A DNA stretch of 64,000 nt from Mesorhizobium huakuii. GTDB taxonomy: Bacteria; Pseudomonadota; Alphaproteobacteria; Rhizobiales; Rhizobiaceae. Of the stretch, positions 45,207-62,141 are shown in pieces (within the stretch, counting starts at the first letter, position 1; each line of letters begins with the position of its first letter). Location: assembly GCF_014189455.1 (NCBI RefSeq), contig NZ_CP050296.1, positions 4,646,001 to 4,710,000 of the forward strand. The letters run 5' to 3'. The notes beneath the pieces were generated by a model. That model saw only the letters and a program-made list of their open reading frames with translations, searched no databases and had not been told where the DNA came from. A program made the translations under genes and the position numbers.

Positions 45207-46588
45207 CCGACAAATCAGGGTTGGTCGCACTCGTCGACGACGATGCCGACCTGCTGCACGCCACCACGCAATTGCTCGAACTTGCCGGCTTCACTGTGGT
45301 CGCCCGCGATGCCGCTGAAACCGCACTAGCTGTCGTCGACAGGGACTTCGACGGCGTGGTCGTCAGCGACATCCGCATGCCGGGCATGAACGGGCTGCAG
45401 CTGTTCGACCGCATCAAGGCGATCGACCCTGATATACCGGTGATCCTGGTCACCGGCCATGGCGATGTCGATCTTGCCGTCGCCGCGCTCAAGGACGGCG
45501 TCTACGATTTCATCCCAAAACCCTATGCTGGCGACCGCCTTGTCGAGGCGCTGAAACGGGCGAGCGAAAAGCGGCGGCTGGTGATGGAGAACCGGCGGCT
45601 GCGCGAAGCCGCCGCGCTGGCCGCCGACGGCCTGCCGCTGATCGGCGAAGCGCCCGCCATCCGCCGGCTGCGCGAGACCTTGCGGCAGATCGCCGACATG
45701 GATGTCGACGTGCTGGTGGAAGGCGAGACCGGAACCGGCAAGGAAGTAGTGGCCGACCTCTTGCATCGGTGGGGCCGGCGCCGGGCCAAACCCTTCGTGG
45801 CGCTGAATTGCGGTGCCCTGCCGGAGACCGTCATCGAAAGCGAGCTGTTCGGCCACGAGGCCGGCGCATTCACCGGCGCGCAGCGGCGGCGGATCGGCCG
45901 TGTCGAGCATTCCAGCGGCGGCACGCTGTTCCTCGACGAGATCGAATCCATGCCGCCGGCTCTCCAGGTCAAGCTGCTGCGGGTGCTTGAAACGCGCAGC
46001 CTCACACCGCTCGGCTCGAACGAGATCCGGCGCCTCGATCTGAGGGTCGTGGCGGCGACGAAGGTCGATCTCGGCCGGCCCGACCAGCGCGGTGATTTTC
46101 GCGAGGACCTCTATTTCCGGCTCAACGTGGTGACGCTGCGCATTCCGCCTTTGCGCGAGCGGCGCGGCGACATCCCGATGCTGTTCGGCCATTTCCTCGG
46201 CAAGGCCGCCGAGCGCTTCGGTCGGCCCGTCGCCAAAATGAACGCCGCGGTCAGTGACCATCTCCAGGCGCATGCATGGCCGGGCAATGTCCGCGAACTC
46301 GCCCATTTCGCCGATCGCGTCGCCCTTGGCCTCGGCCCGGACGACGAGATGAGGGCGGTCTCCCCGCAATCGGCGGAGCCAGCGGCCTCGCTGCCCGAAC
46401 GCGTCGGCCACTACGAGGCGCAGCTCATCCGCGATGCGCTGCGCGACCATGGCGGTGACGTGCGCGGCGCTATCGACGCGCTCGGCGTGCCGCGCAAGAC
46501 GTTTTACGACAAGCTCAAGCGCTACGGCATTGCCGCGTCCGAGTTCCGCAATGGCGGCGATCCGCACCCTGTTCGAGAGCAGACATAG
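45203..46588 (+). CDS. dctD: C4-dicarboxylate response regulator DctD (sigma-54 activator)
   Basis: NtrC-type activator of dctA, 461 residues. The receiver domain has the phosphoacceptor in [13 protein letters not shown] near residue 55 and the lysine in DFIPKPY. The AAA+ domain has Walker [17 protein letters not shown], the sigma-54-contacting GAFTGAQ loop and [12 protein letters not shown]. The C-terminal Fis-type helix-turn-helix is [20 protein letters not shown]. It overlaps dctB by ATGA. The DctD sites at 43207-43255 are its expected targets. Confidence 0.97.
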
Positions 46589-46651: not shown

Positions 46652-47074
46652 ATGAACACGACCCTCGAAACAACGGCAAACCCCTTGCCGCAAGACCTCA
46701 CCTTTCTCAGCGAACAGCTGACGGCGTTCAACGACGGCGATGTCGGTGCGTCGGAAAGAAAGGCGCTCGCGGTGTTCGTGCGCGACGAGGCTGGCGCGGT
46801 CGTTGCCGGGATTTCGGGTTACACGGCGTGGGGCTGGCTCTACGTGCAATGGCTGTGGGTCGATGAAAGGCTGCGCGGCCAGCAAATGGCCGGCCAGATG
46901 CTGGATGCGGCCGAGAAGGAGGCCGTGGCGCGCGGTTGCAACAACGCCTGGATCGACACCTTCAATCCCAACGCCGCCAAGGTCTACCAGCGCCAGGGCT
47001 ATCAGCCCTTCGGAACGCTGGCCGATTTCCCCGTCGGCCGCAGCCGCATCTTCCTGCAGAAGAGGCTGGCTTAA
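46652..47074 (+). CDS. GNAT-family N-acetyltransferase
   Basis: Small acetyltransferase of 140 residues. The acetyl-CoA pocket motif A is [20 protein letters not shown], followed by [27 protein letters not shown], typical of the RimI-like/YhbS group. GGAAAGAG precedes the ATG. It converges with anmK and the two genes overlap by 4 bases. The substrate is unknown; a link to cell-wall amino sugars is possible only by position. Confidence 0.85.
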
Positions 47075-48190
47075 CCTGCCAGTCTTCCGCCGCGCATCGG
47101 CTGCGGTGCGCCGGTGGTGCTTGGAAAACTGATCGGCAGGCCGCGCAGCACGCGCACCGCGAGGAAGGCGAAACACTCGGCTTCCACCGCATCGCCGCTC
47201 CAGCCGAGGCTTTCGGCCTGCACCACCTCGACGCCGGCGCGGCTGGCGAGCATTGCCATCATCGTCGGATTGTGGCGGCCGCCACCGCTGACCACCAATT
47301 TCTTCGGCCGGGTTGGCAAGAGGTCGAGCGCCTTGCCGATGGCGCCGGCCGTGAAGGCGGTGAGCAGGGCCGCACCATCCTCGGCATTCAGGCCGTCGGC
47401 CATGGCGGCGCCGAAGTCGAAGCGGTCCAGCGACTTGGGGTAGGGCTTGGTCAGATAAGGATGCTGCAACAGCTTGGCGAGCCGGGCTTCGTCGACCGTT
47501 CCCGCGCGGCCAAGCGCGCCGTCGCGATCCATGTCGCCGAGGCCCTTCGACTTGATGAAATCGTTGAGCGGCGCGTTGGCGGGGCCGGTGTCGAAGGCAA
47601 CGACATTGTCGGCGCCGTCCCACCAGGTGATGTTGGCGACGCCGCCGAGATTGAGCACGGCCACTTCGCCACTGGCGCCCGCGCTGCGCATCAGCGCGGT
47701 GTGATAGGCAGCCGCCAGGGGGCGCGCCTTGCCCGCCGGCGCGCATGTCGGCCGAGCGGAAATCATAGGCGACCTTGGTGCCCAGTATGCTGTGCATCAG
47801 CTCGCCGTCGCCCAATTGCCGCGTCTGGCCAATCCGTCCGACCTGCGGCGCGCGATGCAGCACCGTCTGGCCGTGAAAGCCGACGACGCCGATATCGGCC
47901 ATCGTCATGCCGTAGCCCTCGACCAATTCCTTGACCGCCGCCGACTGCGCGCGCGTCAGCGCTTCCTCCGCCTTGCGGAAGATCGCCGGTTCCGGCCCGA
48001 CAAAATTCCAGGCTCTGGCCGCCGTCAGCGTCTCTTCCAGCAGCGACCGGATCGACTGGGCGTAAGGCATCAGCCGGTAGGTGCCGAAATCCTCGATGCG
48101 TTCGCCATCGGTCTTGATCAGCGCGACGTCGATATTGCCGTCAAGCACGGTGCCGGTCATCAGGCCGACGGCCCAGATTGGTTCCATCAT
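47071..48190 (-). pseudogene. anmK: Anhydro-N-acetylmuramic acid kinase AnmK, with a one-base frameshift
   Basis: Kinase that opens and phosphorylates 1,6-anhydro-MurNAc to MurNAc 6-phosphate, the substrate of MurQ. The first part starts at 48190 with [20 protein letters not shown] and runs to [14 protein letters not shown]. At a run of five C (plus-strand G 47718-47722) the frame changes; removing one C continues as [20 protein letters not shown], through [27 protein letters not shown] and [19 protein letters not shown], to the stop at 47071. The joined length is 372 residues, as expected. As written the literal frame runs on to 46601 with an unrelated tail. It follows the serine hydrolase gene after 7 bases. 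Confidence 0.88.
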
Positions 48191-48197
48191 CTAGCTC

Positions 48198-49196
48198 CTA
48201 AAGTCCATTGACGAGATCGCCGACCGCTTGCCGAAGCTGAACGATTCCGCTGTCGAAATGACGTGTCGGATGGATCCGGTTGGTGAGCAAGGTCCAGGCC
48301 TTGCCGCTGTCGAAATCGACCCACAGTCCCGTGCCGGTAAAGCCGGTGTGGCCGATGGTTCCAGGGCTGCACAAGGCCCCGCCGGACCAGCCCTTACAAG
48401 GGCGCTCCCAGCCATGGGTGCGTGTGGTAGACAAGGACGTGCGCATCAGGGCGGTCGAAAGCTCGGATGCGCCGGTCAGCAGCCCATGCGCGAAATCCAG
48501 TACCGAAGCGGCTGTTCCAAACAGGCCGGCATGACCGGCGCCCTGCAGCGCAGAGCAGTTGTCGTCGTGCACCTCGCCGGACAGGACGCGGTGACGCCAG
48601 GTGCAGTCCTCGGTCGCCGCGGCGGCGTCGGGCTCCGTGGACCATGCGAATCCGAGGCCGGGATCCATGTCGCGGATCGTTTTCCCCGACAGCCGCTCGA
48701 GCGCAAAGCCGAGCAGGATGAAGTTGATGTCGGAATAGACCAGGTCACGCGCCCGCCATTCGCGCTGCAGGATGAAGGCGCGCAGCAGGTCTGGGTCGCG
48801 TCCGTAAGTGTAGATCGGCTCGACGGCCGGGAAGGGCGTCTGATGGCCAAGGCACTGGCGGAACGTCACCTTTCGCTCCCAGGCCTCGGCATCATACTGG
48901 CGAAGGTCCGGCAGCACCGAGATCAGTGGCGCGTCGAGATCGATGACGCCGTCTTCGGCCAGCGCCAGAATGCGCGGCGTGGTAAAGATCACCTTGGTCA
49001 GGGACGCCAGGTCGAACCAGGTCTCGGCGGTCATCGGTCGCTGCTTCGGCACAAGTTGCGCCGAGCCGATTGCCCTGGTGATGCGGTGGCCATTGCTGTC
49101 GACAATGCCGAGCACGCCGCCGGGAATGCGCTTGCTGGACACTGCGGCTTCGAGCGGCGCGAACGCGCGGTCGAATAGCTGGGCGAGGGCGCTCAA
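48198..49196 (-). CDS. Serine hydrolase, beta-lactamase/DD-peptidase (class C, S12) family
   Basis: Penicillin-recognising serine hydrolase of 332 residues with all three active-site elements: SLTK (nucleophile serine near residue 65), the tyrosine motif YSDIN and the KTG-type box GHTGFTG. No signal peptide is visible, so it is probably cytoplasmic. Its position between a peptide importer and anmK suggests it trims imported muropeptides or D-amino-acid esters or amides; hydrolysis of beta-lactams is less likely. It is preceded by a palindromic repeat in the 222-base gap after the ATPase gene. Confidence 0.85.
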   Translation of the reverse strand: MSALAQLFDRAFAPLEAAVSSKRIPGGVLGIVDSNGHRITRAIGSAQLVPKQRPMTAETWFDLASLTKVIFTTPRILALAEDGVIDLDAPLISVLPDLRQYDAEAWERKVTFRQCLGHQTPFPAVEPIYTYGRDPDLLRAFILQREWRARDLVYSDINFILLGFALERLSGKTIRDMDPGLGFAWSTEPDAAAATEDCTWRHRVLSGEVHDDNCSALQGAGHAGLFGTAASVLDFAHGLLTGASELSTALMRTSLSTTRTHGWERPCKGWSGGALCSPGTIGHTGFTGTGLWVDFDSGKAWTLLTNRIHPTRHFDSGIVQLRQAVGDLVNGL

Positions 49197-49229
49197 TGCC
49201 GGCCTCCACTAGAGAGGCTGCGATCCTTG

Positions 49230-49387
49230 GCGCCCCCCTCTGTCCTGCCGGACATCTCCCCCACCAGGGGGAGATCAGCAGCTTTGATGTTCCGCCAACC
49301 TTCCAACGTTGGAGATTGGCGAAAGCTGCGACGACATCCGATCTCCACCCTAGTGGGGGAGATGCCCGGCAGGGCAGAGGGGGGCGC
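49230..49387. repeat. 158-bp palindromic intergenic element
   Basis: Terminal inverted repeats GCGCCCCCCTCTG (49230-49242) and CAGAGGGGGGCGC (49375-49387) enclose two hairpins built on ATCTCCCCCACCAGGGGGAGAT and a near-copy at 49351-49373, plus a central TCCAACGTTGGA. It resembles in design, but not in sequence, the element at 22525-22665. It splits the peptide-transporter genes from the serine hydrolase and anmK and could affect their read-through. Confidence 0.8.
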
Positions 49388-49418
49388 TGTCCCGCCAACC
49401 GCTGACATTCGAGGGCCA

Positions 49419-51167
49419 TCACCCTTCAACCCTCGCTCGATGATCCGGCCCAAATTGCTCCCACCGCGCCGGCGCCGGCTCGAAACCTTGCGGGCGCACC
49501 AGTGAAGGCACTTGGCGCGTGTCCAGTTCGAAATGCTCGCGCCGCCGGTCGATGGTCGGAACGGCGGCAATGAGTTTCTTCGTATAGGAATGCTTCGGCT
49601 CAGACAGCACCGAAGCCGCATCGCCGATCTCGACGATCTGGCCCGCATAGATGACGGCGATGCGATGCGCGATCCGCTCGACCACCGCCATGTCGTGCGA
49701 GATGAAAAGATAGGCCAGCCCAAACTCGCGCTGCAGGTCGACCAGCAGCTCCAGCACCTTGGCCTGGACCGAAACGTCGAGCGCCGACACCGCTTCATCG
49801 AGCACGACCACGGACGGGTTGAGCATCAGCGCGCGGGCAATGCACAGTCTCTGCCGCTGGCCGCCGGAGAATTCATGGGGATAGCGCTGAAGGCTATTCA
49901 CGGGCAGGCCGACACGTTCCAGCAGGCTCGCCATCCTGGCGCGCGTCTCGGCATCCACACGGCCACCGGTGGCGATCACCGGCTCGGCCAGGATGCTTTC
50001 GATGGTCAGTCTGGGATTGAGCGAGGCATAGGGGTTCTGGAACACCATCTGCACCGGCTTGGCGCTGTGCTCCGCCGAGGCCGCCCGAGCGCCGACCGAG
50101 AAGCTCCCGCGCGTTGAACGGACCAGCCCGAGCACCGCCTTCGCGGTGGTCGATTTGCCCGAACCGCTCTCGCCGACGATGGCCAGCGTCTCGCCCGGCA
50201 TCAGGTCGAAATCGATGCCGTCGACGGCGTGCACCGCACCGGTGGCGCGGCTGAAGAAATTGCTCTTGAGAGGGAACCGCACGACGAGGCCGTCGACCTT
50301 CAGCGCGGGTTTCATGTGCTCGCCCTTGTCGCGCTGGCCGTCGACACGCGCGGCGCTTCCGTTGGCGAAATGCGGCACATCCCGCAGCAGATGCTGCGTG
50401 TAAGGGTGCTGCGGCCTGTCGAGGATCTGGTTCAGTTCGCCTTGCTCCACGGCCTGCCCGTTCTGCATCACCATCACCTTGTCGGCGATGCCGGCAACCA
50501 GGCCGATATCATGGGTGATGAAGATCATCGACATGCCGGTCTCGCGCTTCAACTCGGCCAGCAGCGCCATGATCTGCGCCTGCACGGTGACGTCGAGCGC
50601 CGTCGTCGGCTCGTCGGCGATCAGCAGGCGAGGATTGCAGGCGAGCGCTATGGCGATCATCACCCTTTGCAGCATGCCGCCCGACAGCTGGTTGGGTGTG
50701 TATTTCAACCGCCGTGCGGCATCGGGAATGCGCACCCGGTCGAGCGCATCCTTGGCCGCTGCAGTAGCCTGCCGGCCTGTGAGGCCTCGATGCAGCCGGA
50801 ACGATTCCTCGATCTGCGTGCCGATGGTCAGCACCGGATTGAGCGAGGTCATCGGTTCCTGGAAGATCATGCCGATCTCGGCGCCGCGAATGCCGGTCAG
50901 CTGAGGTTCGGTGGCTCCCATCAGGTCGAACAGGCTGCCGTCGGCCCGCTTCAATTTCATCGAACCGCCGATGATGCGACCGCCGCCGAAATCAATGAGA
51001 CGGTTGATCGACAGCGCGGTGACGGATTTACCCGAACCGCTTTCACCGACAATGGCCAGTGTTTCGCCATCAGCCAGATCGAAGCTGACGCCGCGCACCA
51101 CCTCATTGGCTTGGCGGTCGCGGCCGAAGCCGACGCGAAGGTCGCTGACCGACAGAAGGGGCGTCAT
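49419..51167 (-). CDS. Peptide ABC transporter, two ATPase domains fused (DppD-DppF type)
   Basis: Single polypeptide of 582 residues with two complete nucleotide-binding domains, as in GsiA and related proteins. Domain 1: Walker A GESGSGKS at 41-48, signature LSGGMLQRVMIA, Walker B LLIADEPTTALD. Domain 2 starts near residue 295: GESGSGKST, FSGGQRQRLCIARA, VVVLDEAVSALD. An internal RPQHPYTQHLLRDVP closes the first half in DppD style. The start at 51167 (MTPLLSVSDLRVGFG) overlaps the DppC-type gene by ATGA; the open frame beyond it is antisense nonsense over the permeases. It powers the importer encoded upstream. Confidence 0.93.
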   Translation of the reverse strand: MTPLLSVSDLRVGFGRDRQANEVVRGVSFDLADGETLAIVGESGSGKSVTALSINRLIDFGGGRIIGGSMKLKRADGSLFDLMGATEPQLTGIRGAEIGMIFQEPMTSLNPVLTIGTQIEESFRLHRGLTGRQATAAAKDALDRVRIPDAARRLKYTPNQLSGGMLQRVMIAIALACNPRLLIADEPTTALDVTVQAQIMALLAELKRETGMSMIFITHDIGLVAGIADKVMVMQNGQAVEQGELNQILDRPQHPYTQHLLRDVPHFANGSAARVDGQRDKGEHMKPALKVDGLVVRFPLKSNFFSRATGAVHAVDGIDFDLMPGETLAIVGESGSGKSTTAKAVLGLVRSTRGSFSVGARAASAEHSAKPVQMVFQNPYASLNPRLTIESILAEPVIATGGRVDAETRARMASLLERVGLPVNSLQRYPHEFSGGQRQRLCIARALMLNPSVVVLDEAVSALDVSVQAKVLELLVDLQREFGLAYLFISHDMAVVERIAHRIAVIYAGQIVEIGDAASVLSEPKHSYTKKLIAAVPTIDRRREHFELDTRQVPSLVRPQGFEPAPARWEQFGPDHRARVEG

Positions 51168-52006
51168 GCCGGCGCCCTCCGCATCCTGGGGTCGAGGATA
51201 TCGCGCAAGGCATCCCCAAGCAGGTTGAAGCCGAGGATGCTGATCATGATGGTCAGGCCTGGAAAGATCATCAGCCAGGGCGCGGTTTCCATCAGATTGC
51301 GGCTGTCGCTCAGCATCAGGCCGAGCGAGGCGGCGGGCGGCTGCGTGCCGAGGCCGAGGAAGCTCAGGCCGGCTTCGGTGAGCAGCGCCCAGGCCAGCGC
51401 CAGCGTCACCTGCACCGTCAACGGTGCCACCAGATTGAGCAGCAAATGGCGCGTGACGATGTAGAACGAGCTGCTGCCGAAGGTGCGCGCGGCGTCGACG
51501 AATTCGCGTGCTTTGAGTGAGAGGGCAGGGCCGCGGACCACGCGGGTGAAGATCGGCGTGTAGACGATGCCGATGGCGACGACGCTGGTCCATGTGCCCG
51601 GCCCGGCGACAGTGACGATGAGCAGGGCCAGAAGGATGGCGGGGAAGGCCAGCAGCACGTCCATGATCCGCATCACCACGCCATCCCAGCGGCGCCCGAG
51701 CCAGGCCGCCGCCAGCCCGAGCACCGTGCCGGCAAGAGTGGCGAAGGCCACCGAGAAGAAGGCGACCGTGAAGGATTGGCCGATGCCGGCCATCAGCCGG
51801 CTGGCGACGTCGCGACCGAACAAATCGGTGCCCATCCAGTAGGCGCCATTGGGCGCGTGCAGCCGGTCGACGCGGAACTGTGTGATCGGGTTGTGCGGCG
51901 TCAGCCCGACCAGGCCGAGGATGGCGATCAGCAAATAGATGCCGACAATGACGCCGCCGATGCGGCCGCTGCCGTGGCCGAAGATGGCGCGCAGGATGCG
52001 CATCAC
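51164..52006 (-). CDS. Peptide ABC transporter permease (DppC/OppC type)
   Basis: Inner-membrane subunit of 280 residues with the DppC N-terminal helix GGVIVGIYLLIAILGLVGL and the motif GTDLFGRDVASRLMAGIGQS. The cytoplasmic EAA-type loop is EFVDAARTFGSSSFYIVTRH. It overlaps the DppB-type gene upstream and the double ATPase downstream by ATGA. In the peptidoglycan-recycling context it likely carries muropeptides or free cell-wall peptides. Confidence 0.93.
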   Translation of the reverse strand: MMRILRAIFGHGSGRIGGVIVGIYLLIAILGLVGLTPHNPITQFRVDRLHAPNGAYWMGTDLFGRDVASRLMAGIGQSFTVAFFSVAFATLAGTVLGLAAAWLGRRWDGVVMRIMDVLLAFPAILLALLIVTVAGPGTWTSVVAIGIVYTPIFTRVVRGPALSLKAREFVDAARTFGSSSFYIVTRHLLLNLVAPLTVQVTLALAWALLTEAGLSFLGLGTQPPAASLGLMLSDSRNLMETAPWLMIFPGLTIMISILGFNLLGDALRDILDPRMRRAPA

Positions 52007-52962
52007 TGCTCTCCCAGCCGGATGCGCGGATCGAGCGCGACATAGGCGAGGTCGACCAGGAGATTGACGATCATGAAATTGAAGGCGATGAACAGCACGG
52101 CTCCTTGCACCAGCGCGTAGTCGCGCTGCAGGATAGCGTCCAGCACCATGCGGCCGAGGCCGGGCAAGGCATAGATCTGCTCGACGATGACGGCGCCGCC
52201 CAGGAGGTAGCCGAACTCGATGCCGCTCAACGTCACGACCGGGATCAGCGCGTTAGGAAGCGCATGCCGCCAGATGACGCTGCGCGCCGAGGCGCCCTTA
52301 CTGCGCGCGGTGCGCACATAGTCGTCACTCAACACGTCGAGCATGGCCGAACGCGATATGCGCGTGACCGAAGCGGCAAAGGCAAAGCCAAGCGTGATGG
52401 CGGGCAGGATCAACTGGCTGAGATTGCGCAAGGGATCCTGCCTGAGCGGTGCGAATTCGCCCATCGCCGGCAGCACGCCAAAGCCGGCCGACAGCGTGTA
52501 GATGATCAAAAGGCCAAGCACGAAGCTCGGCGTCGACTGGCCGATCATGGCGGCGATACGCACCCCCAGGTCGGACAGTTTCTCATTGTGCGTCGCGGCG
52601 TAGATGCCTGCCGGCATGCCGACGGCAAGCGCGATGATCATCGACAGGACGGCCAGCTCGAGCGTCAGTGGGAAGCGTTCGAGGATGACATCGAGCACCG
52701 GCCTGCCATAGGTGACCGAAATGCCGAAATTGCCGTGCAGGATGCCGCCGATCCAGCGCCAGTACTGGACGAACCAGGGCTGGTCGATGCCGAAATAGGC
52801 GGCGAGCGAATCCCGCTGTGCCGGCGTCAGCAGCCCGGCTTCGGTGCCCAGCATCGCCGTGATCGAATCGCCGGGGACCATCCGGATCGCCACGAAGACC
52901 AGGACGGACACGCCAAACAGGACGAGAGGAAACGTCGCCAGTCGTCGCATCAGATAGTTCAC
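52003..52962 (-). CDS. Peptide ABC transporter permease (DppB/OppB type)
   Basis: Partner membrane subunit, 319 residues. MNYLMRRLATFPLVLFGVSV begins the protein; typical DppB patterns include GMPAGIYAATHNEKLSDLG and the EAA loop YVRTARSKGASARSVIWRHA. It lies 34 bases after the binding-protein gene and overlaps the DppC-type gene by ATGA. No unusual features. Confidence 0.93.
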   Translation of the reverse strand: MNYLMRRLATFPLVLFGVSVLVFVAIRMVPGDSITAMLGTEAGLLTPAQRDSLAAYFGIDQPWFVQYWRWIGGILHGNFGISVTYGRPVLDVILERFPLTLELAVLSMIIALAVGMPAGIYAATHNEKLSDLGVRIAAMIGQSTPSFVLGLLIIYTLSAGFGVLPAMGEFAPLRQDPLRNLSQLILPAITLGFAFAASVTRISRSAMLDVLSDDYVRTARSKGASARSVIWRHALPNALIPVVTLSGIEFGYLLGGAVIVEQIYALPGLGRMVLDAILQRDYALVQGAVLFIAFNFMIVNLLVDLAYVALDPRIRLGEQ

Positions 52963-52996
52963 GCGAAGAAGTCCTCTCGCCCAATGCCTGCCGCGG

Positions 52997-54514
52997 CTAC
53001 TGCTGGATGGTAACCTTGCTCAGGCTGAACAGCGTGCCGGTCGGCGTCGGCACGAAGCCGGCGATGTTCTTCTGCTGGGCTGTGTAGCTGTAGGACGTGT
53101 AGAGCCAGATCCATGGCGACATCTCGGCGAGGTGCTTCTCGAACTCGGCGAAGATCGCCTTGCGCTTGGCCGGGTCGGTCTCGGCGCGGCCCTGCTGCAT
53201 CTGGCTGTCCAGAGTGTCGTCGATGTAGTTCGCCACCTTCTGCAGATTGCCTGATTTGGTCCAGTAGCGGTTGTACATGGTGTAGGGGTCGGCGCGGCCG
53301 CCATTGAGCGCGATCGCCATGTCGAAATCGCCCTTCAGCCAGGCGTCGACATAGACGTTGAGCTCCATCATCTTGATGTCGAGCTTGACGCCGATTTCAG
53401 CGAGCTGCGACTGGATGACCTGGGCCTCCGCCGCCGCCGTCGGCGGCTCGCCGGTGGCGCCGATCACGGTCGCCGAAAAGCCGTCGGCAAAGCCGGCCTC
53501 GGCCATCAGCTTCTTGGCCTTTTCGACATCGCGCTTGTAGCAGAACAGCTGGATCGGATCGGTCGCCAGCGCCGGGATGGTCAGCGGTCCGGTGACCTTG
53601 CCTTCGCCGAGCGAGGCGGTGTCCAGCACCTCCTGCCGGTCGATGGCGCAGGAGATCGCCTGGCGCACCTTGAGCTCGGTCATCGGCTTGCGCGACGGGT
53701 TGAGCTGCAGCACGTGATAGGCGAGCACGGGCACGCGGTTCAGTTGCAGGCTGGCTTCCTTCGGCACCAGCGTCGCGACCAGCGGGTCGTTGAGCAGCGC
53801 GAAATCGATCTGCTTGGTGCGCATGGCGGCCAGGATCGCCGCTTCGTCCGGCAGCACGCTGATCTCGATGCCGTCGACACCGGTCGCGCCGCCGGCCCAG
53901 TCCTTGTTGGCGCTCAAGACTTCCTTGGCGTTGGGATCCCATTTGTCGAGCTTGAACGGACCTGAGCCAACCGCCTTGGTGCCGATCGAGCCGGCCTTGA
54001 TTTCGCTGGCCGGAACGATGGCAGCGTTGACGTCGCTCATCGCCGTCAGGATCGGCACGTCGGGCTGCGACAGATGGAACACGACGGTCGCCGCATCCGG
54101 CGTGTCGATGCTGGCGATCGACAGGAAGTTGGCGCGAGCGGCCGCCCCAGTCTTCTCGTCGAGGATGCGCTCGAACGAGGCCTTGACGTCGGCCGAGGTC
54201 ACCGCCGTACCGTCCTGGAATTTCGCCTTGGGATCGAGCTTGAAGGTCAGTTCCTTGCCGTCCTTGGAGAATTCCCAGGATGTGGCGATTGCCGGGATGA
54301 TCTGCAGGCTGGCGTCGACTCGCACCAGCGGCTCATAGATCAGTTCCAAAAGCCGCAGCGACGAAAACGCCGTCTGCTTGTGCGGATCAAGGCCGGTGGC
54401 GTCCTGCGACCAGGCCATATGCAGCGTTGCCGCCTGTGTTGAAACCGTGGCCATGCCGAGCATCGCGGCAACCGTGATGCCCGACAGCAATGTTCTTGTG
54501 AGATGCCTTGTCAT
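52997..54514 (-). CDS. Peptide/oligosaccharide ABC transporter periplasmic binding protein (SBP family 5)
   Basis: Periplasmic receptor of the DppBCDF-type importer, 505 residues. The signal peptide TRTLLSGITVAAMLGMATVS ends in TQA-A; the mature region has the SBP_bac_5 entry GLDPHKQTAFSSLRLLELIYEPLVR and KLDPKAKFQDGTAVTSADVK. Located between murQ and the permeases in the peptidoglycan-recycling island, it is the best candidate for binding muropeptides, anhydro-MurNAc compounds or cell-wall peptides, since rhizobia lack the MurP phosphotransferase route. Ligand specificity cannot be read from sequence. Confidence 0.9.
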   Translation of the reverse strand: MTRHLTRTLLSGITVAAMLGMATVSTQAATLHMAWSQDATGLDPHKQTAFSSLRLLELIYEPLVRVDASLQIIPAIATSWEFSKDGKELTFKLDPKAKFQDGTAVTSADVKASFERILDEKTGAAARANFLSIASIDTPDAATVVFHLSQPDVPILTAMSDVNAAIVPASEIKAGSIGTKAVGSGPFKLDKWDPNAKEVLSANKDWAGGATGVDGIEISVLPDEAAILAAMRTKQIDFALLNDPLVATLVPKEASLQLNRVPVLAYHVLQLNPSRKPMTELKVRQAISCAIDRQEVLDTASLGEGKVTGPLTIPALATDPIQLFCYKRDVEKAKKLMAEAGFADGFSATVIGATGEPPTAAAEAQVIQSQLAEIGVKLDIKMMELNVYVDAWLKGDFDMAIALNGGRADPYTMYNRYWTKSGNLQKVANYIDDTLDSQMQQGRAETDPAKRKAIFAEFEKHLAEMSPWIWLYTSYSYTAQQKNIAGFVPTPTGTLFSLSKVTIQQ

Positions 54515-54613
54515 TTTCGTCTCCCATTATGATTTGACTTGATGCCTTGCAGTTTCTGCCGACCGCTTCCAAGACACACATGCTTCGGAGTATCGGCCCA
54601 GTTCTATGCGGCC

Positions 54614-55537
54614 TTAGGCCGTCTTGTCGCTGATTGCCTTTCGCAGGAAGCCTCCGGCCTTGCCGAGGGCAGCCCGCGCCGCCTCGACATCAAGGCCAGT
54701 GATCGTCACCAGGATCGCTAGCTTCACGTCATTCCCGGTTTGCTGGAGCGCCTGTTTGGCCTGCTGCGCCGTGCAGCCCGTCGTCTGCATGACCATCCTG
54801 GTTGCCCTTGCCACCAGTTTCTTGTTGGACGGGTTGAGGTCGACCATCAGATTCTGAAAACTCTTGCCGATGCGGATCATCGAGGCCGTGGTCAGCATGT
54901 TGAGCACCAGCTTCTGCGCGGTTCCCGATTTCAGCCGGGTCGAGCCGGTGAGCACTTCGGGGCCGACGACCGGCGAGATGGCGATGTCGGCGATGCCGGC
55001 AATGGTCGAGGCCGGATTGCAGGACAGGGCGACCGTGGCGGCACCCACCCGTTTCGCATAGTTCAGCCCACCGATGACATAGGGCGTACGCCCGCTGACC
55101 GCGATGCCGACGACAATGTCGTCCGCTGTGAGCCCGATCTCCTGCAGCGCCTGCGCGCCCATTTTCGGATCGTCTTCGGCGCCTTCCAGCGACCGCACCA
55201 GGGCATCGGGACCGCCGGCGATCAGGCCGACAACCATGCCTTCGGGCACGCCGAAAGTGGGCGGACACTCCGAAGCATCGAGAACCCCGAGCCGGCCGCT
55301 GGTGCCGGCGCCGATATAGATCAGCCGCGCGCCTTTCTGGAAGGCAAGCACGATACGATCGACCGCGGCGGCGATTTCCGGCAGCACCTTTTCGACAGCC
55401 GCCGGAACAATCCTGTCCTCATCATTGATCTTGCGCAGCACATCGATGGTCGGCAGCAGGTCGATATCCATCGTCCGCGGGTTACGGCCTTCGGAAACCA
55501 GCAGGTCCAGCTCAGACATCAATCCTTGCTCGGTCAT
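54614..55537 (-). CDS. murQ: N-acetylmuramic acid 6-phosphate etherase MurQ
   Basis: Cleaves the lactyl ether of MurNAc 6-phosphate to give GlcNAc 6-phosphate and lactate, next after AnmK. The SIS domain has [20 protein letters not shown], the signature ECPPTFG with the catalytic glutamate, [12 protein letters not shown] with the second acid region, and VALSCNPAS. The C-terminal helical tail is [23 protein letters not shown] 55537 ([10 protein letters not shown]) is chosen because GAAGG stands ahead of it, giving 307 residues, close to E. coli MurQ (298). An RpiR-type palindrome lies at 55667-55685 upstream. Confidence 0.95.
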
Positions 55538-55666
55538 TCCAGTGCCTTCAAAATTCTGCTGCCCGGCATGGCTCAATGGGCGCCAGGGAACACGGACCTT
55601 GGGTCCGTCATCGCATTTTTCTTTGTTAACTTTTTAGAATTGGATATTCGTATCGTCAACAGGAGA

Positions 55667-55685
55667 TTGGAATATTTTATTCCAA
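55667..55685. promoter_or_regulatory. RpiR (MurR-type) operator upstream of murQ
   Basis: TTGGAATATTTTATTCCAA is an 8-3-8 perfect palindrome (TTGGAATA, TTT, TATTCCAA), 130 bases before the murQ start and just after the stop of the kinase gene. The same word, with only its last two bases changed, occurs between murA and the RpiR gene at 57943-57961. A related half-site AATTGGATATTCG lies at 55638-55650. Confidence 0.72.
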
Positions 55686-55697
55686 CTCCCGCGAAAC

Positions 55698-56576
55698 TTA
55701 CTGTGTACAGAGCGACCGTTTGGCAAGGATGATCGCACCGGACACGGCGTCACCGTCGGCGGGCTTCAGACGGCGCCGCACATCGGGCGAAAGCCAGGGT
55801 TCGAGCGGGCTGGCGAGGCCGCCCAGCAAGGTCACGCGCGGCGCGCCTTTTTCGAACAGCACCCGCACCAGCGTGTCGATCTGCTCGGCGGCACTTTGCA
55901 CGATGCGCCGTCCGGCGGGATCGCCCTGGTCGGCATGGCGCATCACCATCGGCGCCAACGCGGCGTAATCCGTGGCGCTGGCGCGGTCCATCCAGGCGAC
56001 GGCCTCCATCGGGTCGCCCTCGAAGCGCTGCATCACCTCCGCCAGCAGCGCTGTCCGCTCGTGCCGGCCGTCATGGGCGCGCAGAGCCAGTTGCACGGCT
56101 TTCAGGCCAAGATCGGCGCCGCTGCCCTCATCAGAGATCGGAAAACCGTAACCGCCGACCCGCAGGTCGCGCCCCTCGGCGAAGCCAAGGCCGATCGAAC
56201 CGGTGCCGGCGATGACGATGGCACCGTCCTGCCCGGAATGCGCGCCAAGGCAGGCGCCAACGCCGTCGCTGACGAAATCGATGCTGGCAAAGGGATGCGC
56301 GATTGCCCGCAACGCCTCCAGCGCACCCTTGCGGCCGATGCCGGCGAGGCCGATGCCGGCCCGGATTCGGCCGATCTCGAACGGCCCGAAGCCTGTCTCT
56401 TCGATCGCCGCGCCAAAGGCTTTGGCAATGGAAGCCCAGGCCGCGTCGATCCCGAGCCGCGTTGTCGCCGGGCCTGACAGGCCCTGTCCCAGCACGGTTC
56501 CCGCCGCATCCTCGATGCGGGCCCGGCAGCCGGTGCCGCCGCCATCGACGCCGAGGAAATAGTCCACGCCGCTCAT
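55698..56576 (-). CDS. BadF/BadG/BcrA/BcrD-type kinase, probable GlcNAc/MurNAc kinase
   Basis: ATP-dependent amino-sugar kinase of 292 residues. It starts [20 protein letters not shown], with the phosphate-binding GVDGGGT loop; IVIAGTGSIGLGFAEG and GYGFPISDEGSGADLGLKAV follow, the latter typical of N-acetylglucosamine kinases. Clostridium MurK, of the same family, phosphorylates both GlcNAc and MurNAc, so either sugar is plausible here. ATG 56576 overlaps the murA stop by ATGA, so the two genes share a transcript. Confidence 0.85.
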   Translation of the reverse strand: MSGVDYFLGVDGGGTGCRARIEDAAGTVLGQGLSGPATTRLGIDAAWASIAKAFGAAIEETGFGPFEIGRIRAGIGLAGIGRKGALEALRAIAHPFASIDFVSDGVGACLGAHSGQDGAIVIAGTGSIGLGFAEGRDLRVGGYGFPISDEGSGADLGLKAVQLALRAHDGRHERTALLAEVMQRFEGDPMEAVAWMDRASATDYAALAPMVMRHADQGDPAGRRIVQSAAEQIDTLVRVLFEKGAPRVTLLGGLASPLEPWLSPDVRRRLKPADGDAVSGAIILAKRSLCTQ

Positions 56577-57829
56577 GCGCTCAGCCGCTCGATGTCGGCG
56601 CCGCAAAGGCGCAGCTTGCGATCCAACTGCTCATAGCCGCGATCGAGATGATAGACGCGGTTGATGATCGTCTCGCCTTCGCTGACCAGCGCCGCCAACA
56701 CCAGCGACACCGAGGCGCGCAGGTCGGTGGCCATGACTTGAGCGCCATGCAGTTTCTCGCCGCCGCGCACCAGCGCCATGGTGCCTTGCAGCTTGATGTT
56801 GGCGCCGAGCCGCATCAGCTCCGGCACATGCATGAAGCGGTTCTCGAAAATGGTTTCGCGCAGCAGCGATGCGCCCTCGGCGCAACACATCAGCGCCATG
56901 AACTGCGCCTGCAGGTCGGTCGGAAAACCCGGATAGGGTTCCGTCGTGAGGTCGGCGGCCTTGAGCGGCCGCTCGCGCGAGACGATGAGCCCGCGGTCGC
57001 CGGGCCAGACGCTGACGCCGGTGGCTTCCAGCAATTGCACCACCGAGGCCATATGTTCGAGCCGGGCGTGGGTGAGCTCGAGCTGGCCGCCGGTGATCGC
57101 CGCGGCGATCGCATAGGTGCCGGCCTCGATCCGGTCCGGGATGATGTCGTGCCTGGCCGCATGCCAGCCGGTGTCGCCGGCGATCAGAATGCGGTGCGTG
57201 CCGGCGCCCTCGATGCGCGCGCCCATGGCGTTGAGGCAGGCGGCGAGATCAGCCACTTCCGGTTCGCGCGCCGCGTTGAGGATCTCGGTTTCGCCCTTGG
57301 CCGTGGTCGCCGCCATCATTGCGGTTTCGGTTGCCCCGACCGACGGCGAACTGAGTACGATGCGCGTGCCGGTCAGCCCGTTCGGCGCCGAGGCGACGAT
57401 GGAGCCGTTCTCGATCGCAATCCTTGCACCCGGTGCCGCGAGTGCCGCGACATGCATGTCGACCGGCCGCGCGCCGATCGCGCAGCCGCCCGGCAGCGAA
57501 ACCCGGGCATGGCCGAACCGGGCGAGCAGCGGCGCCAGCACCAGCACCGTCGCGCGCATTTTGCGTACCGTGTCATAAGACGTTTCCTTCGAAACGGCAG
57601 CGCTTGTGTCGATCGTCGCGGCATGCGCCGACCGCGTCACCTCGGCGCCGTGAAGCCGCACCACGCCGAGCATGTTTTCGACGTCGGTTACATCTGGCAG
57701 ATTGGTCAGTTCGAGCGGGTAGGGGCTGAGCAGGGCAGCCGCGATCTGCGGCAGAGCGGCGTTCTTGGCGCCTGAAATGGTGACCGCGCCTTCCAGTCTT
57801 CGTCCGCCGACGATCCGCAATCTGTCCAT
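56573..57829 (-). CDS. murA: UDP-N-acetylglucosamine 1-carboxyvinyltransferase MurA (recycling-linked copy)
   Basis: First committed enzyme of peptidoglycan synthesis, adding enolpyruvate to UDP-GlcNAc. The 418 residues show the EPT fold: [22 protein letters not shown] with the conserved Lys-Asn, the catalytic cysteine loop [15 protein letters not shown], and the C-terminal [21 protein letters not shown]. The active-site cysteine (fosfomycin target) is present. It is the first gene of a two-gene operon with the sugar kinase, divergent from the RpiR regulator. A recycling operon is an unusual place for murA; a housekeeping murA probably exists elsewhere. Confidence 0.93.
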
Positions 57830-57942
57830 GGCTGAACCCTTGTATGGCGAAAGCCGGGCGGCGGTCTCTCCGGAAGACCTTCTCGATTCCCGAACCTGGC
57901 CGATCCGAGAATTAATTCTGCGTTCTTGGCTGTCAATCGAAA

Positions 57943-57961
57943 TTGGAATATTTTATTCCTC
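57943..57961. promoter_or_regulatory. RpiR (MurR-type) operator between murA and the RpiR gene
   Basis: TTGGAATATTTTATTCCTC matches 17 of 19 positions of the palindrome upstream of murQ. It lies 28 bases before the RpiR start and 114 bases before the murA start, so it can control both. A further small palindrome AGAATTAATTCT sits at 57908-57919. Confidence 0.72.
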
Positions 57962-57988
57962 CAAGCACCGCAGCGCTCCAGAGGGTTC

Positions 57989-58849
57989 ATGTCCGTTCTC
58001 AAGCAGATCCATGCGAAGCTCGACGGCATGGCGCCCGGCGATCGCGAGATCGGCCAGTACATCGTCGACAATCCCGACCAGATGCTGCGGCTGTCGACGG
58101 CAGCGCTTGCGGCCGAGATCGGCCGCAGCCAGTCGAGTGTGGTCAAGTTCAGCCAGAAACTCGGCTATGCCAGCTACCAGGAGCTCAAGCTCGCCGTCAG
58201 CGAGGCCAAGGCGCAGGACTGGCAGGTGCCGGCCGGCGTTATCCACGGCTCGATCGAGGTCGGTGACAACTATCCGGTCATCCTGAAGAAGCTGATCGGC
58301 AGCAAGCTGCTGTCGATGCAGCAGACCGTCGCCGCCAACACCGAGCGCATCATCGGCCGCACGCTGGAACTGCTCGACGGCGCGCGCCGCATCCATCTGG
58401 TCGGCGTCGGCGCCTCCTCGCTGGTGGCGCGCGACTTCTCCTACAAGCTGATGAAGCTCGGCCGCAACGTGCTGCATGACAGCGACAGCCATATCCAGAT
58501 GGCCAATGCCGCGACGCTCGGGCCTGGCGACGTGCTGTTCGCGCTCTCCTATTCCGGCGCCAGCATCGAAACCTTGCGCATCGCCGAGCTTGCCCGCAAG
58601 CGCGGCACGATGGTGATCGCCGTCACCGGCCTGCACGACAATCCGCTGAGCCGCGTCGCCGACATCCGCCTCTACACCATCGCCGATGAAGAGCGCGCGC
58701 GCTCCTCCTCCATCACCGCGCGCGACGCACAGCTGACGCTGACCGATTTGCTGTTCATCCTTTTGGTGCAGAGGCAGCCGGACGCCAACGACTATGTCCA
58801 CAACAGCGAGATGGCGGTCTCCGTGCTGAAGGCCGAGCGGTCCTCGTAG
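57989..58849 (+). CDS. murR: RpiR-family transcriptional regulator (MurR-like)
   Basis: Probable repressor of the peptidoglycan-recycling genes, 286 residues. The N-terminal helix-turn-helix is LSTAALAAEIGRSQSSVVKF (residues about 28-47); the C-terminal SIS domain, which senses a sugar phosphate, includes RIHLVGVGASSLVARDFSYK and VLFALSYSGASIETLRIA. In E. coli MurR senses MurNAc 6-phosphate, the compound linking AnmK to MurQ here. ATG 57989 follows GAGGG; the longer frame from 57926 crosses the operator. The gene symbol is by role and context. Confidence 0.85.
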   Translation: MSVLKQIHAKLDGMAPGDREIGQYIVDNPDQMLRLSTAALAAEIGRSQSSVVKFSQKLGYASYQELKLAVSEAKAQDWQVPAGVIHGSIEVGDNYPVILKKLIGSKLLSMQQTVAANTERIIGRTLELLDGARRIHLVGVGASSLVARDFSYKLMKLGRNVLHDSDSHIQMANAATLGPGDVLFALSYSGASIETLRIAELARKRGTMVIAVTGLHDNPLSRVADIRLYTIADEERARSSSITARDAQLTLTDLLFILLVQRQPDANDYVHNSEMAVSVLKAERSS

Positions 58850-58906: not shown

Positions 58907-61096
58907 CTACCAGCTCGTGTGCACCTTCAGCTTGAACGAACGGCCTTCGCCGTAGGAGCAGGTCAGCGTCGTCTGACAACTGGCGACATAGGTCTTGTTG
59001 AACAGATTGGTGACGTTGAGATCGACGCCCCAATTCTCCTTCTCGTAGCCGAGTTTCAGGTCGGCGAGCGTGACGGCCGGCACCTTCGCCGTGTTCTCGT
59101 TGTCGGCCCATGAGGAGCCGATATAGCGCAGACCGCCGCCAATCGAGATGCCGTCATACCAGTCACCACGGAATGTGTAGTCGGCGGAGGCCGAGGCCAT
59201 CACTTCCGGTACGATGAAGGGCGTCTTGCCAATCAGCGCCGGGTTGGCATCCTTCGTGATTTCGAGATTGTAGGCGGTGAATGCGCCCGTAATCCGGAAA
59301 TCATCCGTCATATTCACCTTGCCTTCGAGTTCGACGCCGCGTGAGCGCACTTCCCCGGTCTGCATCTGTGTGAAGAGCGTGACGTTCGAGGGCACGTTCT
59401 GGCGCGTCAGGTCAAACAAGGACAGGGTGAACAAGGCATCGATGAAGGTCGGCACATATTTCACGCCGACTTCATATTGCGTGCCTTCTTCCGGCCTGAA
59501 CAGATTGCCCATCGCGTCCGTACCGATGATCGGATTGAAGAAAGTGGCGATGCTGGCATAAGGGGTTACGCCGTTGGCGAACTCATAGGCGAGGCCGGCA
59601 CGGCCGGAGAAATCGCCTACCGTGCTGCTCTGCGTGCTGGAGCTCGCCGAGTAGAAGGTCGGACGATTATCGGCGTCGAGCCAGCCACGGTCGTAGCGGC
59701 CATTCAGCGTCACCAGCCAGCCATCGCCAAAACGCAGCTGATCCTGCGCATAGAAGCCAAGCTGCTTCTGCGTCAGGTTCTGGTTGAGGTAGCTGACGCG
59801 TGGCGTCAGCGGCGACCCGTATACCGGATGGAAGGCATCAATGGGATTGTCGTAGTTGGGATCGTAGAGGCCAGAGGACTGTACCTGATCGATGTTGTAG
59901 TATTTGAAGTCCAGACCGGCGAGGATCGTGTGCTCGATTGGACCGGTCGTCACCTTGCCTTCGATCTGGTTGTCGAGAAGGAAGGTCTTTGCCGTGGTGT
60001 CGTGGTCGAAATTTATTCGCGCCAGGTCGGTAGGCCCGCCGGTGAGCGACCAGCCGTTCGGATAGACACTGACCTCATCGATATCGGCGGCGGTGAAGCG
60101 GGCGTTGGAACGCGCGGTCCAGTCATTGTCGAAATCGTGTTCGAACTCATAACCGATCGAGCCTTGTTCACGCTTGTAGAGATCGATGCTTGGTTCGGTG
60201 AAATTCGCATCGGGGTCGATGCGGCCGTAGTTCACCCCACCGGCAATGTGGTCCGTCACCGTGCCGTCATAGGGCAGGAAGCTGCCGCCATTATGGTTCT
60301 CGTCGATGTGGCTGTAGTTGGCCAGGATGGTCAACGTGGTTGCTTCGTCCGGCTTCCACGTAATGCTGGGCGAGATGAAGCCGCGCCAGCCGTTCTGCAG
60401 GTCGCTGTAGGTGTCGCCGCCGGCGACCTTGCCATTGATGCGGTAGCTGACCGTGTTGTTGCTGGCCACGTCGCCGACGTCGAAGCCGAGATAGACATTG
60501 CCGGCATCGTTGACGCCGGTTTCGACATAGCGCTTGCGTTCGAACTCGGGCCGCTTGCTGACATAGTTGACCAGTCCGCCGGGGTTGCTGCCGCCATAGA
60601 GCACTGAGGCCGGGCCCTTCAGCACCTCGATGCGCTCAAGGCCGAAACTGTCGACATAGAAGCCGCCGAAGCCGTAGCTGAACAGCTGCAGGCCATCCAT
60701 GTAGGTGCCGGTAGCGGTCGCCTGGAAACCGCGGATCAACAGCCAGTTGGTGTCGCTGTCCGGGCCGAAGGGCTGGGCGAAGACGCCGGCCGTGTAGCGC
60801 AAGGCCTCGTCCACCTTCTGCGCGCCCTGGTCGTCGATCTCCTGCCGGCCGACGACAGAGACGGATTGCGGGATGTCCTTGATGTCGGTTGCCGTCTTCG
60901 AGCCTGTCGTGGTCTTCTTGGCGACGACACCTTCGACCGGCCCGGTCGCGCTGCCGCCAGCCTCACCCTCGACCACCACCGGCTCAAGCTGGGTGCTGGT
61001 TTGCACGGCCTGCGCGAAGGCGGCCATCGGCGTGATCATTGCGACAGTGGCGACACTGGCCGCCAGAAGCGCCTTCCTCCGGTAAAGTCTGCTCAT
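58907..61096 (-). CDS. TonB-dependent siderophore receptor (FhuA/FoxA-like)
   Basis: Outer-membrane receptor of 729 residues that imports a ferric siderophore using TonB energy. The signal peptide MSRLYRRKALLAASVATVAM ends in AFA-Q; the TonB box region is LEPVVVEG; the plug domain includes DIKDIPQSVSVVGRQEIDDQ, RYTAGVF and LLIRGF, IEVLKGPASVLYGGSNPGG; the 22-stranded barrel ends with the C-terminal aromatic SW. A promoter with a possible TGA-N9-TCA iron box and an AraC palindrome lies upstream. Its AraC regulator gene is directly upstream on the same strand. Confidence 0.92.
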   Translation of the reverse strand: MSRLYRRKALLAASVATVAMITPMAAFAQAVQTSTQLEPVVVEGEAGGSATGPVEGVVAKKTTTGSKTATDIKDIPQSVSVVGRQEIDDQGAQKVDEALRYTAGVFAQPFGPDSDTNWLLIRGFQATATGTYMDGLQLFSYGFGGFYVDSFGLERIEVLKGPASVLYGGSNPGGLVNYVSKRPEFERKRYVETGVNDAGNVYLGFDVGDVASNNTVSYRINGKVAGGDTYSDLQNGWRGFISPSITWKPDEATTLTILANYSHIDENHNGGSFLPYDGTVTDHIAGGVNYGRIDPDANFTEPSIDLYKREQGSIGYEFEHDFDNDWTARSNARFTAADIDEVSVYPNGWSLTGGPTDLARINFDHDTTAKTFLLDNQIEGKVTTGPIEHTILAGLDFKYYNIDQVQSSGLYDPNYDNPIDAFHPVYGSPLTPRVSYLNQNLTQKQLGFYAQDQLRFGDGWLVTLNGRYDRGWLDADNRPTFYSASSSTQSSTVGDFSGRAGLAYEFANGVTPYASIATFFNPIIGTDAMGNLFRPEEGTQYEVGVKYVPTFIDALFTLSLFDLTRQNVPSNVTLFTQMQTGEVRSRGVELEGKVNMTDDFRITGAFTAYNLEITKDANPALIGKTPFIVPEVMASASADYTFRGDWYDGISIGGGLRYIGSSWADNENTAKVPAVTLADLKLGYEKENWGVDLNVTNLFNKTYVASCQTTLTCSYGEGRSFKLKVHTSW

Positions 61097-61119
61097 CAGG
61101 AAAGTCCCCGCCTGTCGTC

Positions 61120-61147
61120 GTTGAGATACTTGATCATTTATCTCAAC
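61120..61147. promoter_or_regulatory. Receptor promoter: AraC-type palindrome overlapping a possible iron box
   Basis: GTTGAGATA (61120-61128) and TATCTCAAC (61139-61147) form a 9-10-9 inverted repeat 24 bases before the receptor start. Inside it, 61131-61145 reads TGA-TCATTTATC-TCA, which fits the RirA iron-responsive pattern TGA-N9-TCA of rhizobia. AraC-family siderophore regulators commonly bind next to receptor genes, so joint control is likely. Confidence 0.55.
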
Positions 61148-61232
61148 TTATCCGCGGGTCATTGGACGGATTTGGGCGGCTTGTCCATTCTTGTCCAAAC
61201 GAGGGACATCGCGGCGTCATGTTGCGGAAATG

Positions 61233-62099
61233 TCACTGGTGGTCGGCACTTTTCATCCAGGCGCCGGGTGTCACGCCGACCACCGATTTGAACACCCGCG
61301 TCAGATGCGCCTGGTCGAAGAAGCCGGTCGCCTCGGCGATGTCGGCAAGCGAGGCAGCGTCATTCGCCATCATCGCCTTGGCCCTGTTGACCCGCGCCTG
61401 CATCTGCCAGCGGTGCGGCGGCACGCCCGTTGCCGCCTTGAAGGCATGGCTCATCGCGGTCTCGGACAGGCCGGTCAGCGCGGCGAGATCGGCAAGCCGG
61501 ATCCTGTCCAGGCAGTGCGCGTCGATATAGTCGGTGACGAGGCGCAGCTTGCGGCGCGACAGCAGTGACCGACGCCTGGCGACATCCGGCGGGTCGATCT
61601 GGAAAAGGCTGGCGAACAAGGCATTGAGCAGGCCCTCGCCATAGAGATCATGCAGCGGCTGGTCGCTGCCGCATTCGGCGGCGATCAGGCCGGCCAGCAT
61701 GGCGACGCGGTCGTCGCGAAACTGGAAGCGCGACATCTGTAAGGCCTCACGATCGAGGCTGCGGCCGAAGCGCCGCGTCAGCGTCGCCACGTCGAAATGC
61801 AAATCGAGATGTCGGATGCGGCGCAAACCCTCGACCCGGCCACGGATCGGCACACCGGCCGGAATGTAGGCCATGGAGAGGGGGCCGTCGTGGCGCGATA
61901 CTTCGCCTTTGGCGCCTTCGACGAAGAAGGCGCCGCCGCCATCCACATCGAGCGCCACAAACAGCCGGGGATCGGGAGAGACATAGTAACCCTCGGCCCG
62001 GTCACCGCACGAGACATCCCAGAGGTCGGCGACCACGCCGTCCCATAGATGCCATTTCAGGTCGCCGATGACCGAAAAGCCCTCGATCCGGCTTTCCAT
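61233..62099 (-). CDS. AraC-family transcriptional regulator
   Basis: Activator of 288 residues. The C-terminal double helix-turn-helix covers about residues 180-288: IRLADLAALTGLSETAMSHA, then DIAEATGFFDQAHLTRVFKS and VVGVTPGAW. The N-terminal half is a sensor of the PchR/AraC type with no recognisable motif. ATG 62099 (ESRIEGFSVIG) is chosen over a TTG at 62117. It lies 136 bases before the siderophore receptor gene on the same strand, so it most likely activates it in response to the ferric siderophore. A strong TGA-N9-TCA site lies upstream. Confidence 0.85.
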   Translation of the reverse strand: MESRIEGFSVIGDLKWHLWDGVVADLWDVSCGDRAEGYYVSPDPRLFVALDVDGGGAFFVEGAKGEVSRHDGPLSMAYIPAGVPIRGRVEGLRRIRHLDLHFDVATLTRRFGRSLDREALQMSRFQFRDDRVAMLAGLIAAECGSDQPLHDLYGEGLLNALFASLFQIDPPDVARRRSLLSRRKLRLVTDYIDAHCLDRIRLADLAALTGLSETAMSHAFKAATGVPPHRWQMQARVNRAKAMMANDAASLADIAEATGFFDQAHLTRVFKSVVGVTPGAWMKSADHQ

Positions 62100-62141
62100 G
62101 CGTGCAACGAAGGTCAAGTCCTGTCTGTCTCCGAGGATAAT

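Follow-up and report, generated by a model that had tools for sequence, protein, structure and literature searches.

A putative PTS-free MurR/MurQ-type gene island of Mesorhizobium huakuii and its relatives, with conserved operators and a probable role in cell-wall fragment scavenging

The stretch of Mesorhizobium huakuii DNA analysed here (assembly GCF_014189455.1, contig NZ_CP050296.1, positions 4,646,001 to 4,710,000; 64,000 nucleotides, hereafter the window, numbered from its first letter) belongs to a genome of 8.45 Mb in 4 contigs and carries a putative peptidoglycan-recycling island. We consider it probable that this island is an inducible wall-fragment scavenging system of the Escherichia coli MurR/MurQ type, in which an ATP-binding cassette (ABC) importer and a kinase replace the phosphotransferase system (PTS) and an extra MurA has been added. 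Its genes form a divergon: rpiR, on the plus strand, faces murA, a kinase gene, murQ, the importer genes for a substrate-binding protein (SBP), DppB, DppC and a fused DppDF, an S12 hydrolase gene and anmK, all on the minus strand, followed by a convergent GNAT gene. Profile matches found every gene named by a first-pass annotation, made from the sequence alone, at the place, on the strand and in the family it had given; the span 46652..58849 that it proposed does enclose the island, but its first position belongs to the GNAT gene and not to anmK.

Two copies of one palindrome, both putative operators without assigned strand, mark the promoters of the island. The copy ahead of murQ (O1, 55667..55685) has perfect arms around a 3-base centre and matched the search sequence with 0 mismatches; the copy between murA and rpiR (57943..57961) agrees with it at 17 of 19 positions, the 2 mismatches being the last two bases, and is present in relatives too. 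The palindrome was absent from 100 shuffles even with up to 3 mismatches allowed, and a whole-genome search with its 17-base core matched only these two places at no more than 2 mismatches, all other rows having exactly 3. With 3 mismatches allowed, the host genome gave 10 rows, of which three stand for the two operators above, and a reversed-pattern control gave 2, so that the regulator may have weak further targets; no wall genes were seen by eye in the translated open reading frames around the six of the seven other places that were inspected. On the murQ strand, O1 is followed 7 nt on by a -35-like TTGACG element (55654..55659, minus strand) and then by a weaker putative operator, O2 (55634..55652, no strand). 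O2 is 33 bp away from O1 and stands immediately past the -35 element, ahead of the probable -10. At murA, a -35-like TTGACA (57931..57936, minus strand) follows 6 nt after the operator.

The same arrangement recurs in relatives. An SBP profile search of named genomes yielded 149 relatives, and the 80 best-scoring ones were taken as named loci; these span Mesorhizobium, Neorhizobium, Aminobacter, Nitratireductor, Phyllobacterium, Devosia, Pannonibacter, Agrobacterium, Rhizobium and others. Operator sites were scored out of 16 with a threshold of 12, over 300 bp upstream of murQ, and seven loci fetched twice from the same genomes (L043-L046, L049-L051) were left out of the counts over loci. A site of at least 12/16 preceded murQ in every one of the 75 loci that have murQ, RpiR and enough upstream sequence, compared with 6/750 shuffled regions and 5/3459 other 300-bp windows of the same loci; given these controls, we reject the idea that the palindrome arose by chance or from a simple repeat. 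The search for this operator beside orthologous islands, which the first-pass annotation had proposed, returned it in all of these 75 loci. The best second site lay 32-33 bp from O1 in 71/76 loci and scored at least 10 in 68/76, as against 8/76 shuffled stretches. A TTGACA-like -35 followed O1 by 4-7 nt in all 76 murQ promoters and the operator by 2-6 nt in 64/70 murA promoters; the chance level of such a box, 4.8% in random 20-mers of the loci, comes from a GC-rich control and is too low for the AT-richer promoters. A further operator-like palindrome (15/16) occurs at L136:489-507, about 5.4 kb from the regulator.

These positions bear on the sign of control. The regulator (57989..58849, plus strand, 286 residues, HTH_6 and SIS domains) is divergent from murA and shares 39% identity with E. 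coli MurR across 251 residues; its best solved chain is likewise E. coli MurR. Operators just upstream of the -35, as in 76/76 murQ and 64/70 murA promoters, sit where activators bind, and RefSeq labels E. coli MurR a dual regulator; the second site 32-33 bp on, between the murQ -35 and -10 in 71/76 loci, is a repressor position, and we think it unlikely that the regulator activates murA and murQ or acts on them in both ways. Under the repressor model that we prefer, the MurR-like protein would repress both promoters through O1-type sites upstream of the -35, would bind O2 at murQ as well, three helical turns away and in a tetramer-like manner, and would release the DNA as N-acetylmuramic acid 6-phosphate (MurNAc-6P), its putative effector, rises.

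Gene content is conserved along with the operators. The regulator, murA, kinase, murQ and the four importer genes occur in 69/80 named loci, in all 69 with the order and strands of the window, and 64 of those 69 additionally have the S12 gene and anmK. Among the 74 named loci whose stretch extends far enough, the importer is linked to the S12 gene and anmK in 73; these two genes are missing from the stretch in 7/80 loci, six of which run into a contig end. At the same time the island is uncommon: an island-type MurQ (at least 64% identity) was found in 12/151 sampled genomes of the family and an SBP orthologue in 10/297 sampled genomes of the order, the host genome being counted in both, and four more genomes of the same genus in the latter sample have no orthologue.

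The individual proteins fit the proposed pathway to different degrees. MurQ (54614..55576, minus strand), the MurNAc-6P etherase, scores 412 bits on TIGR00274 (cut-off 302) and is 53% identical to E. coli MurQ and 36% to the other MurQ of the host; its true start is probably an ATG within the listed reading frame. The BcrAD/NagK-type amino-sugar kinase (55698..56576, minus strand, PF01869) overlaps the murA stop with its start (ATGA). Among solved structures its closest relative is 1zc6, a probable N-acetylglucosamine (GlcNAc) kinase, at 161 bits, with the MurNAc/GlcNAc kinase 8zo3 at 78 bits; the 8oq/8ow entries, which we take to be Tannerella forsythia MurK and its paralogue, matched at E 0.11-0.13 only. 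The S12 serine hydrolase (48198..49196, minus strand, PF00144) shows no signal peptide by eye and has the catalytic S-x-x-K and Y motifs of S12 enzymes. Its fold search returned only the class C beta-lactamase/esterase fold, which gives no function; the fetched part of E. coli YfeW and the S12 protein share 25% identity. Bacillus subtilis AmiE is presumably another S12-type protein.

The E. coli locus murR <-> murQ-murP-yfeW is among the closest known systems. Both have a regulator, putatively of MurR type in the island, divergent from murQ and an S12 gene, which in E. coli is yfeW, the third gene of the operon, downstream. The E. coli murR-murQ gap contains an operator-like site, TCGGGATATATGATTCCAT, that scores 12/16; because 6/750 shuffles of the island upstream regions reach this score, the site is suggestive only. 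The island differs in having an ABC importer and a cytoplasmic kinase in place of the MurP PTS, in including AnmK, MurA and the kinase within the unit, and in its second promoter with an operator of its own. A profile search that matched 7/14 control genomes found no PTS enzyme IIC (EIIC) genes in the host genome, and the host therefore has no MurP, as the first-pass annotation had supposed.

Other known systems share parts of this design. In the B. subtilis cluster murQ-murR-murP-amiE-nagZ-ybbC (PMC5061867), an etherase, a MurR-type regulator and an amidase gene stand together, comparable to the island with its S12 gene as a candidate amidase gene; unlike the island, AmiE and NagZ are extracellular there, uptake is by a PTS, and no MurA or AnmK forms part of the cluster as described. 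Work on Clostridium acetobutylicum and T. forsythia MurK (PMC10465942) places a sugar kinase of related fold beside MurNAc genes, as in the island. Agrobacterium tumefaciens YejABEF is reported as the sole muropeptide importer of that species (PMC9790009). Its YejBEF-YepA system is, according to the same paper, an SBP-dependent ABC importer for wall fragments in Rhizobiales, as we propose for the island, and MurNAc is re-used there through AmgK/MurU and, unlike in the island, not through MurQ (PMC9790009). The island DppB is not of the YejB type (110 bits on the YejB model NF011712, cut-off 445). A search of titles and the starts of abstracts, in which subscription journals were thinly covered and which is no proof of absence, found no published description of the island.

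Split and rearranged islands indicate which parts belong together. Two Nitratireductor genomes (G136 and G040) have the regulator-murA-kinase block about 20 and 23 kb from murQ, and both blocks retain operator sites, of 14/16 at murA and 12-13/16 at murQ. Three Nitratireductor records (L126, L127 and L130) have 12/16 sites at murQ with the regulator outside the stretch; their genomes carry it elsewhere (74% identity), adjoined by a 13-14/16 site. For one genome with murQ-anmK and no importer (G050), no regulator was found at E 1e-40 and no site of at least 12 in the fetched stretches. Five genomes of another family (f6: G348, G155, G302, G368 and G437) keep the importer, S12, anmK and GNAT genes grouped. 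All five have the regulator (64-66% identity) with adjoining sites of 14-15/16 (15/16 in G348), and in four of them the regulator gene adjoins an island-type murQ (63-65%). In G348 the sole MurQ is a 38% one that lies 6 kb away from the importer genes; the importer-murQ distance is 1.3-9 kb in G437, G368 and G155, and in G302 the two are far apart on the chromosome. The operator thus stays with the regulator and murQ, and the importer can escape such control. The claim that the whole set is one regulon holds for the lineage of the window but does not extend to every relative, as the importer blocks of the other family have no such operator in front of them.

The importer itself consists of the family 5 SBP (52997..54514, SBP_bac_5 PF00496), a DppB-type permease (52003..52962, PF00528 (BPD_transp_1) and PF19300), a DppC-type permease (51164..52006, PF00528 (BPD_transp_1)) whose gene overlaps that of DppB, and the fused DppDF-type ATPase (49419..51167), which matches PF00005 twice and so has two ABC domains; all four are on the minus strand. 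Because the importer accompanies the S12 gene and anmK rather than murQ, its cargo is likely to be muropeptide-like. It could instead carry an unrelated substrate, such as an opine-, peptide- or metal-chelate-like compound, and be linked to the recycling genes by position only: SBP family 5 is broad, and the nearest solved relatives of the SBP are AgaA, presumably an opine binder, and then generic peptide/GsiB/DppA types, with the murein-peptide binder MppA ranking lower. We find this improbable, given that importer, S12 gene and anmK stay together in the 73 of 74 far-reaching named loci and also in the five genomes of the other family, where they lie apart from murQ or near only a 38% MurQ. 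Moreover, a wall-peptide-type gene, for a DgcA/L-Ala-D/L-Glu epimerase, adjoins the importer in four of these five genomes, namely in L189, L191 and L192 and, as a short piece only, in L193; in all four loci the GNAT gene comes immediately after anmK and shares the strand of the importer.

Several observations weigh against the scavenging interpretation. Besides the solved relatives of the SBP, the structure model of that protein was too poor to be used (mean predicted local distance difference test score, pLDDT, of 46.6). The regulator reaches 180 bits on the NCBIfam MurR model, for which the cut-off is 408, and the kinase stays below the NagK equivalog cut-off (NagK_SO3507, 258 of 370 bits). 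The 75 operators found ahead of murQ come from related loci and do not count as independent cases. In one locus (L068), whose stretch runs 5.3 kb past the importer, both the S12 gene and anmK are absent, and murA is not in the fetched stretch of 8/80 named loci. In the five genomes of the other family no operator of at least 12 precedes the importer block, and in four of them the importer follows another RpiR gene (33% identity). AnmK, for which the host genome yielded no second copy, is broken as assembled, and the presence of yejB/yejF and of AmgK/MurU-like genes puts the need for an island route in question.

The last two points deserve detail. As assembled, anmK (47071..48190, minus strand, AnmK PF03702) is not one open reading frame: its frame shifts close to five consecutive C at 47718-47722. 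Each of the two pieces matches AnmK. The gene is open in 75/77 relatives examined, and the frameshift may be an assembly error or a recent loss. The anmK genes of L093 and L126 are likewise not in clean frame, one with one stop and one with a frame difference and five stops. Elsewhere in the host genome we found a YejB (540 bits, cut-off 445), a YejF-type ATPase (777 bits, cut-off 834), a TsaE-AmgK fusion and a MurU-like protein (best AmgK and MurU matches of 159 of 500 and 226 of 370 bits, both below their cut-offs), and a second MurQ within a nagA/GntR/nagK/sugar-ABC cluster, its gene names read from translations. A 461-residue protein at L154:7389-8774 joins TsaE to an AmgK-like domain, and its gene lies beside a MurU-like gene. 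Given these genes elsewhere, the island is neither the sole entry nor the sole route. It adds to other recycling genes: the first-pass view of the importer as entry gate for wall fragments is favoured by its linkage to the S12 gene and anmK, but it is not the only gate.

Whether the fragments come from outside or from the cell itself is a related question. The genome's only AnmK found lies in the island, as would suit anhydro-sugars released by the cell's own lytic transglycosylases, and the island might therefore recycle the cell's own wall turnover, with the Yej importer as a minor route. That most sampled genomes of the family are without the island type (MurQ in 12/151, and SBP in 10/297 of the order), together with the yejB/yejF and AmgK/MurU-like genes of the host and the reported standing of YejABEF as sole muropeptide importer in A. 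tumefaciens (PMC9790009), makes this possible but rather doubtful.

For the scavenging pathway that we favour, we infer the following course. The ABC importer would take up (anhydro)MurNAc-peptides as its substrate, and the S12 hydrolase would release the sugar, possibly helped by AmpD/NagZ-type enzymes from elsewhere in the genome. AnmK, acting on the anhydro-sugar, and the BcrAD kinase, acting on MurNAc and/or GlcNAc, would form the 6-phosphates. MurQ would split MurNAc-6P into GlcNAc-6P and D-lactate, and GlcNAc-6P could enter catabolism or return to uridine diphosphate (UDP)-GlcNAc. The co-controlled second MurA might then pull UDP-GlcNAc toward UDP-MurNAc.

That MurA (56573..57829, minus strand, 418 residues) scores 536 bits on TIGR01072 (cut-off 393) and has the catalytic Cys. 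It is an extra copy, as is the island MurQ; neither this, nor the anmK frameshift, nor O2, a third and weaker operator, had been noticed by the first-pass annotation. The host genome also has a housekeeping-type MurA (53-55% identity), whose neighbour gene reads as hisD, and a third MurA-like gene. The third gene (32-41% identity) is at G000:C3:286665-287962 (L057), on a 311-kb contig, and its neighbours, judged from their translations, resemble a radical-SAM natural-product cluster. Each of the 15 genomes tested carries a MurA of 52-56% identity, which we took to be the housekeeping enzyme, and 11/15 additionally have the island type (at least 76%). A tree of 40 MurA sequences rooted on E. 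coli, from which L167 was dropped by the motif filter and the fragment L141 left out, as in the residue check, separated the 23 island rows from the 16 housekeeping-type rows as two clades, with supports of 0.94 and 0.997, respectively. An origin of the island MurA in another phylum was not seen: the best 120 of 8000 scored candidates were all at least 82% identical, and none lay outside the island type.

All 23 island MurA rows retain the catalytic residues K22, N23, R91, C115, R120, D305, R331, D369, R371 and R397 (E. coli numbering). At the position of E. coli Lys160, 19 of them have Ser and 4 have Gly, and L167 has Ala; all 16 housekeeping-type rows have Lys. We take Lys160 of E. coli MurA to be a UDP-GlcNAc contact and not a strict criterion of the family. 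One tentative interpretation, which we hold as a possibility only, is that the regulon couples wall breakdown to synthesis: MurNAc-6P would induce both MurQ, which drains the AmgK/MurU short-cut, and the Lys160-altered second MurA, which would restore UDP-MurNAc or use a different amino-sugar acceptor. Alternatively, and with a chance that we put somewhat higher though still short of even, the second MurA may be a back-up or stress MurA, for instance under fosfomycin-like inhibition, that is under the same operator but has no metabolic tie to MurQ. Its retained catalytic Cys would fit such a role, and the rest of the island manages without murA in the 8/80 named loci as well as in G119, G348 and G155, which have the importer genes and no island-type MurA; the ATGA overlap of murA with the kinase gene and the retention of operator and regulator even where murA is split from murQ speak for a closer tie to the pathway.

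Genes at the two ends of the island complete the picture of the window. The convergent GNAT acetyltransferase gene (46652..47074, plus strand, PF00583) stands beside the island in 55/80 named loci and may belong to the pathway; the nearest solved relatives of its product, 2g3a and 1y9w, are named only acetyltransferase. A role as re-acetylase of deacetylated anhydro-sugars, prompted by the report that A. tumefaciens deacetylates anhMurNAc ends (PMC10838918), was considered, and support for it was not found. Beyond the GNAT gene, genes read from translations as a sensor kinase and an NtrC-type response regulator adjoin the island (43284-46588), as they do in G073 of the same genus; at the regulator end, a TonB-dependent receptor gene and an AraC-type regulator gene, also read from translations, adjoin it (58907-62117).

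Taken together, the data suggest that a PTS-free form of the MurR/MurQ pathway, with a well-conserved operator, exists across several genera of rhizobia and their relatives, and that in the host genome it stands beside Yej and AmgK/MurU-like genes. If the link to MurA is true, the sensing of wall fragments would directly determine how strongly the enzyme of the first committed step in wall synthesis is expressed, and this would bear on how these bacteria respond to wall damage and antibiotics.

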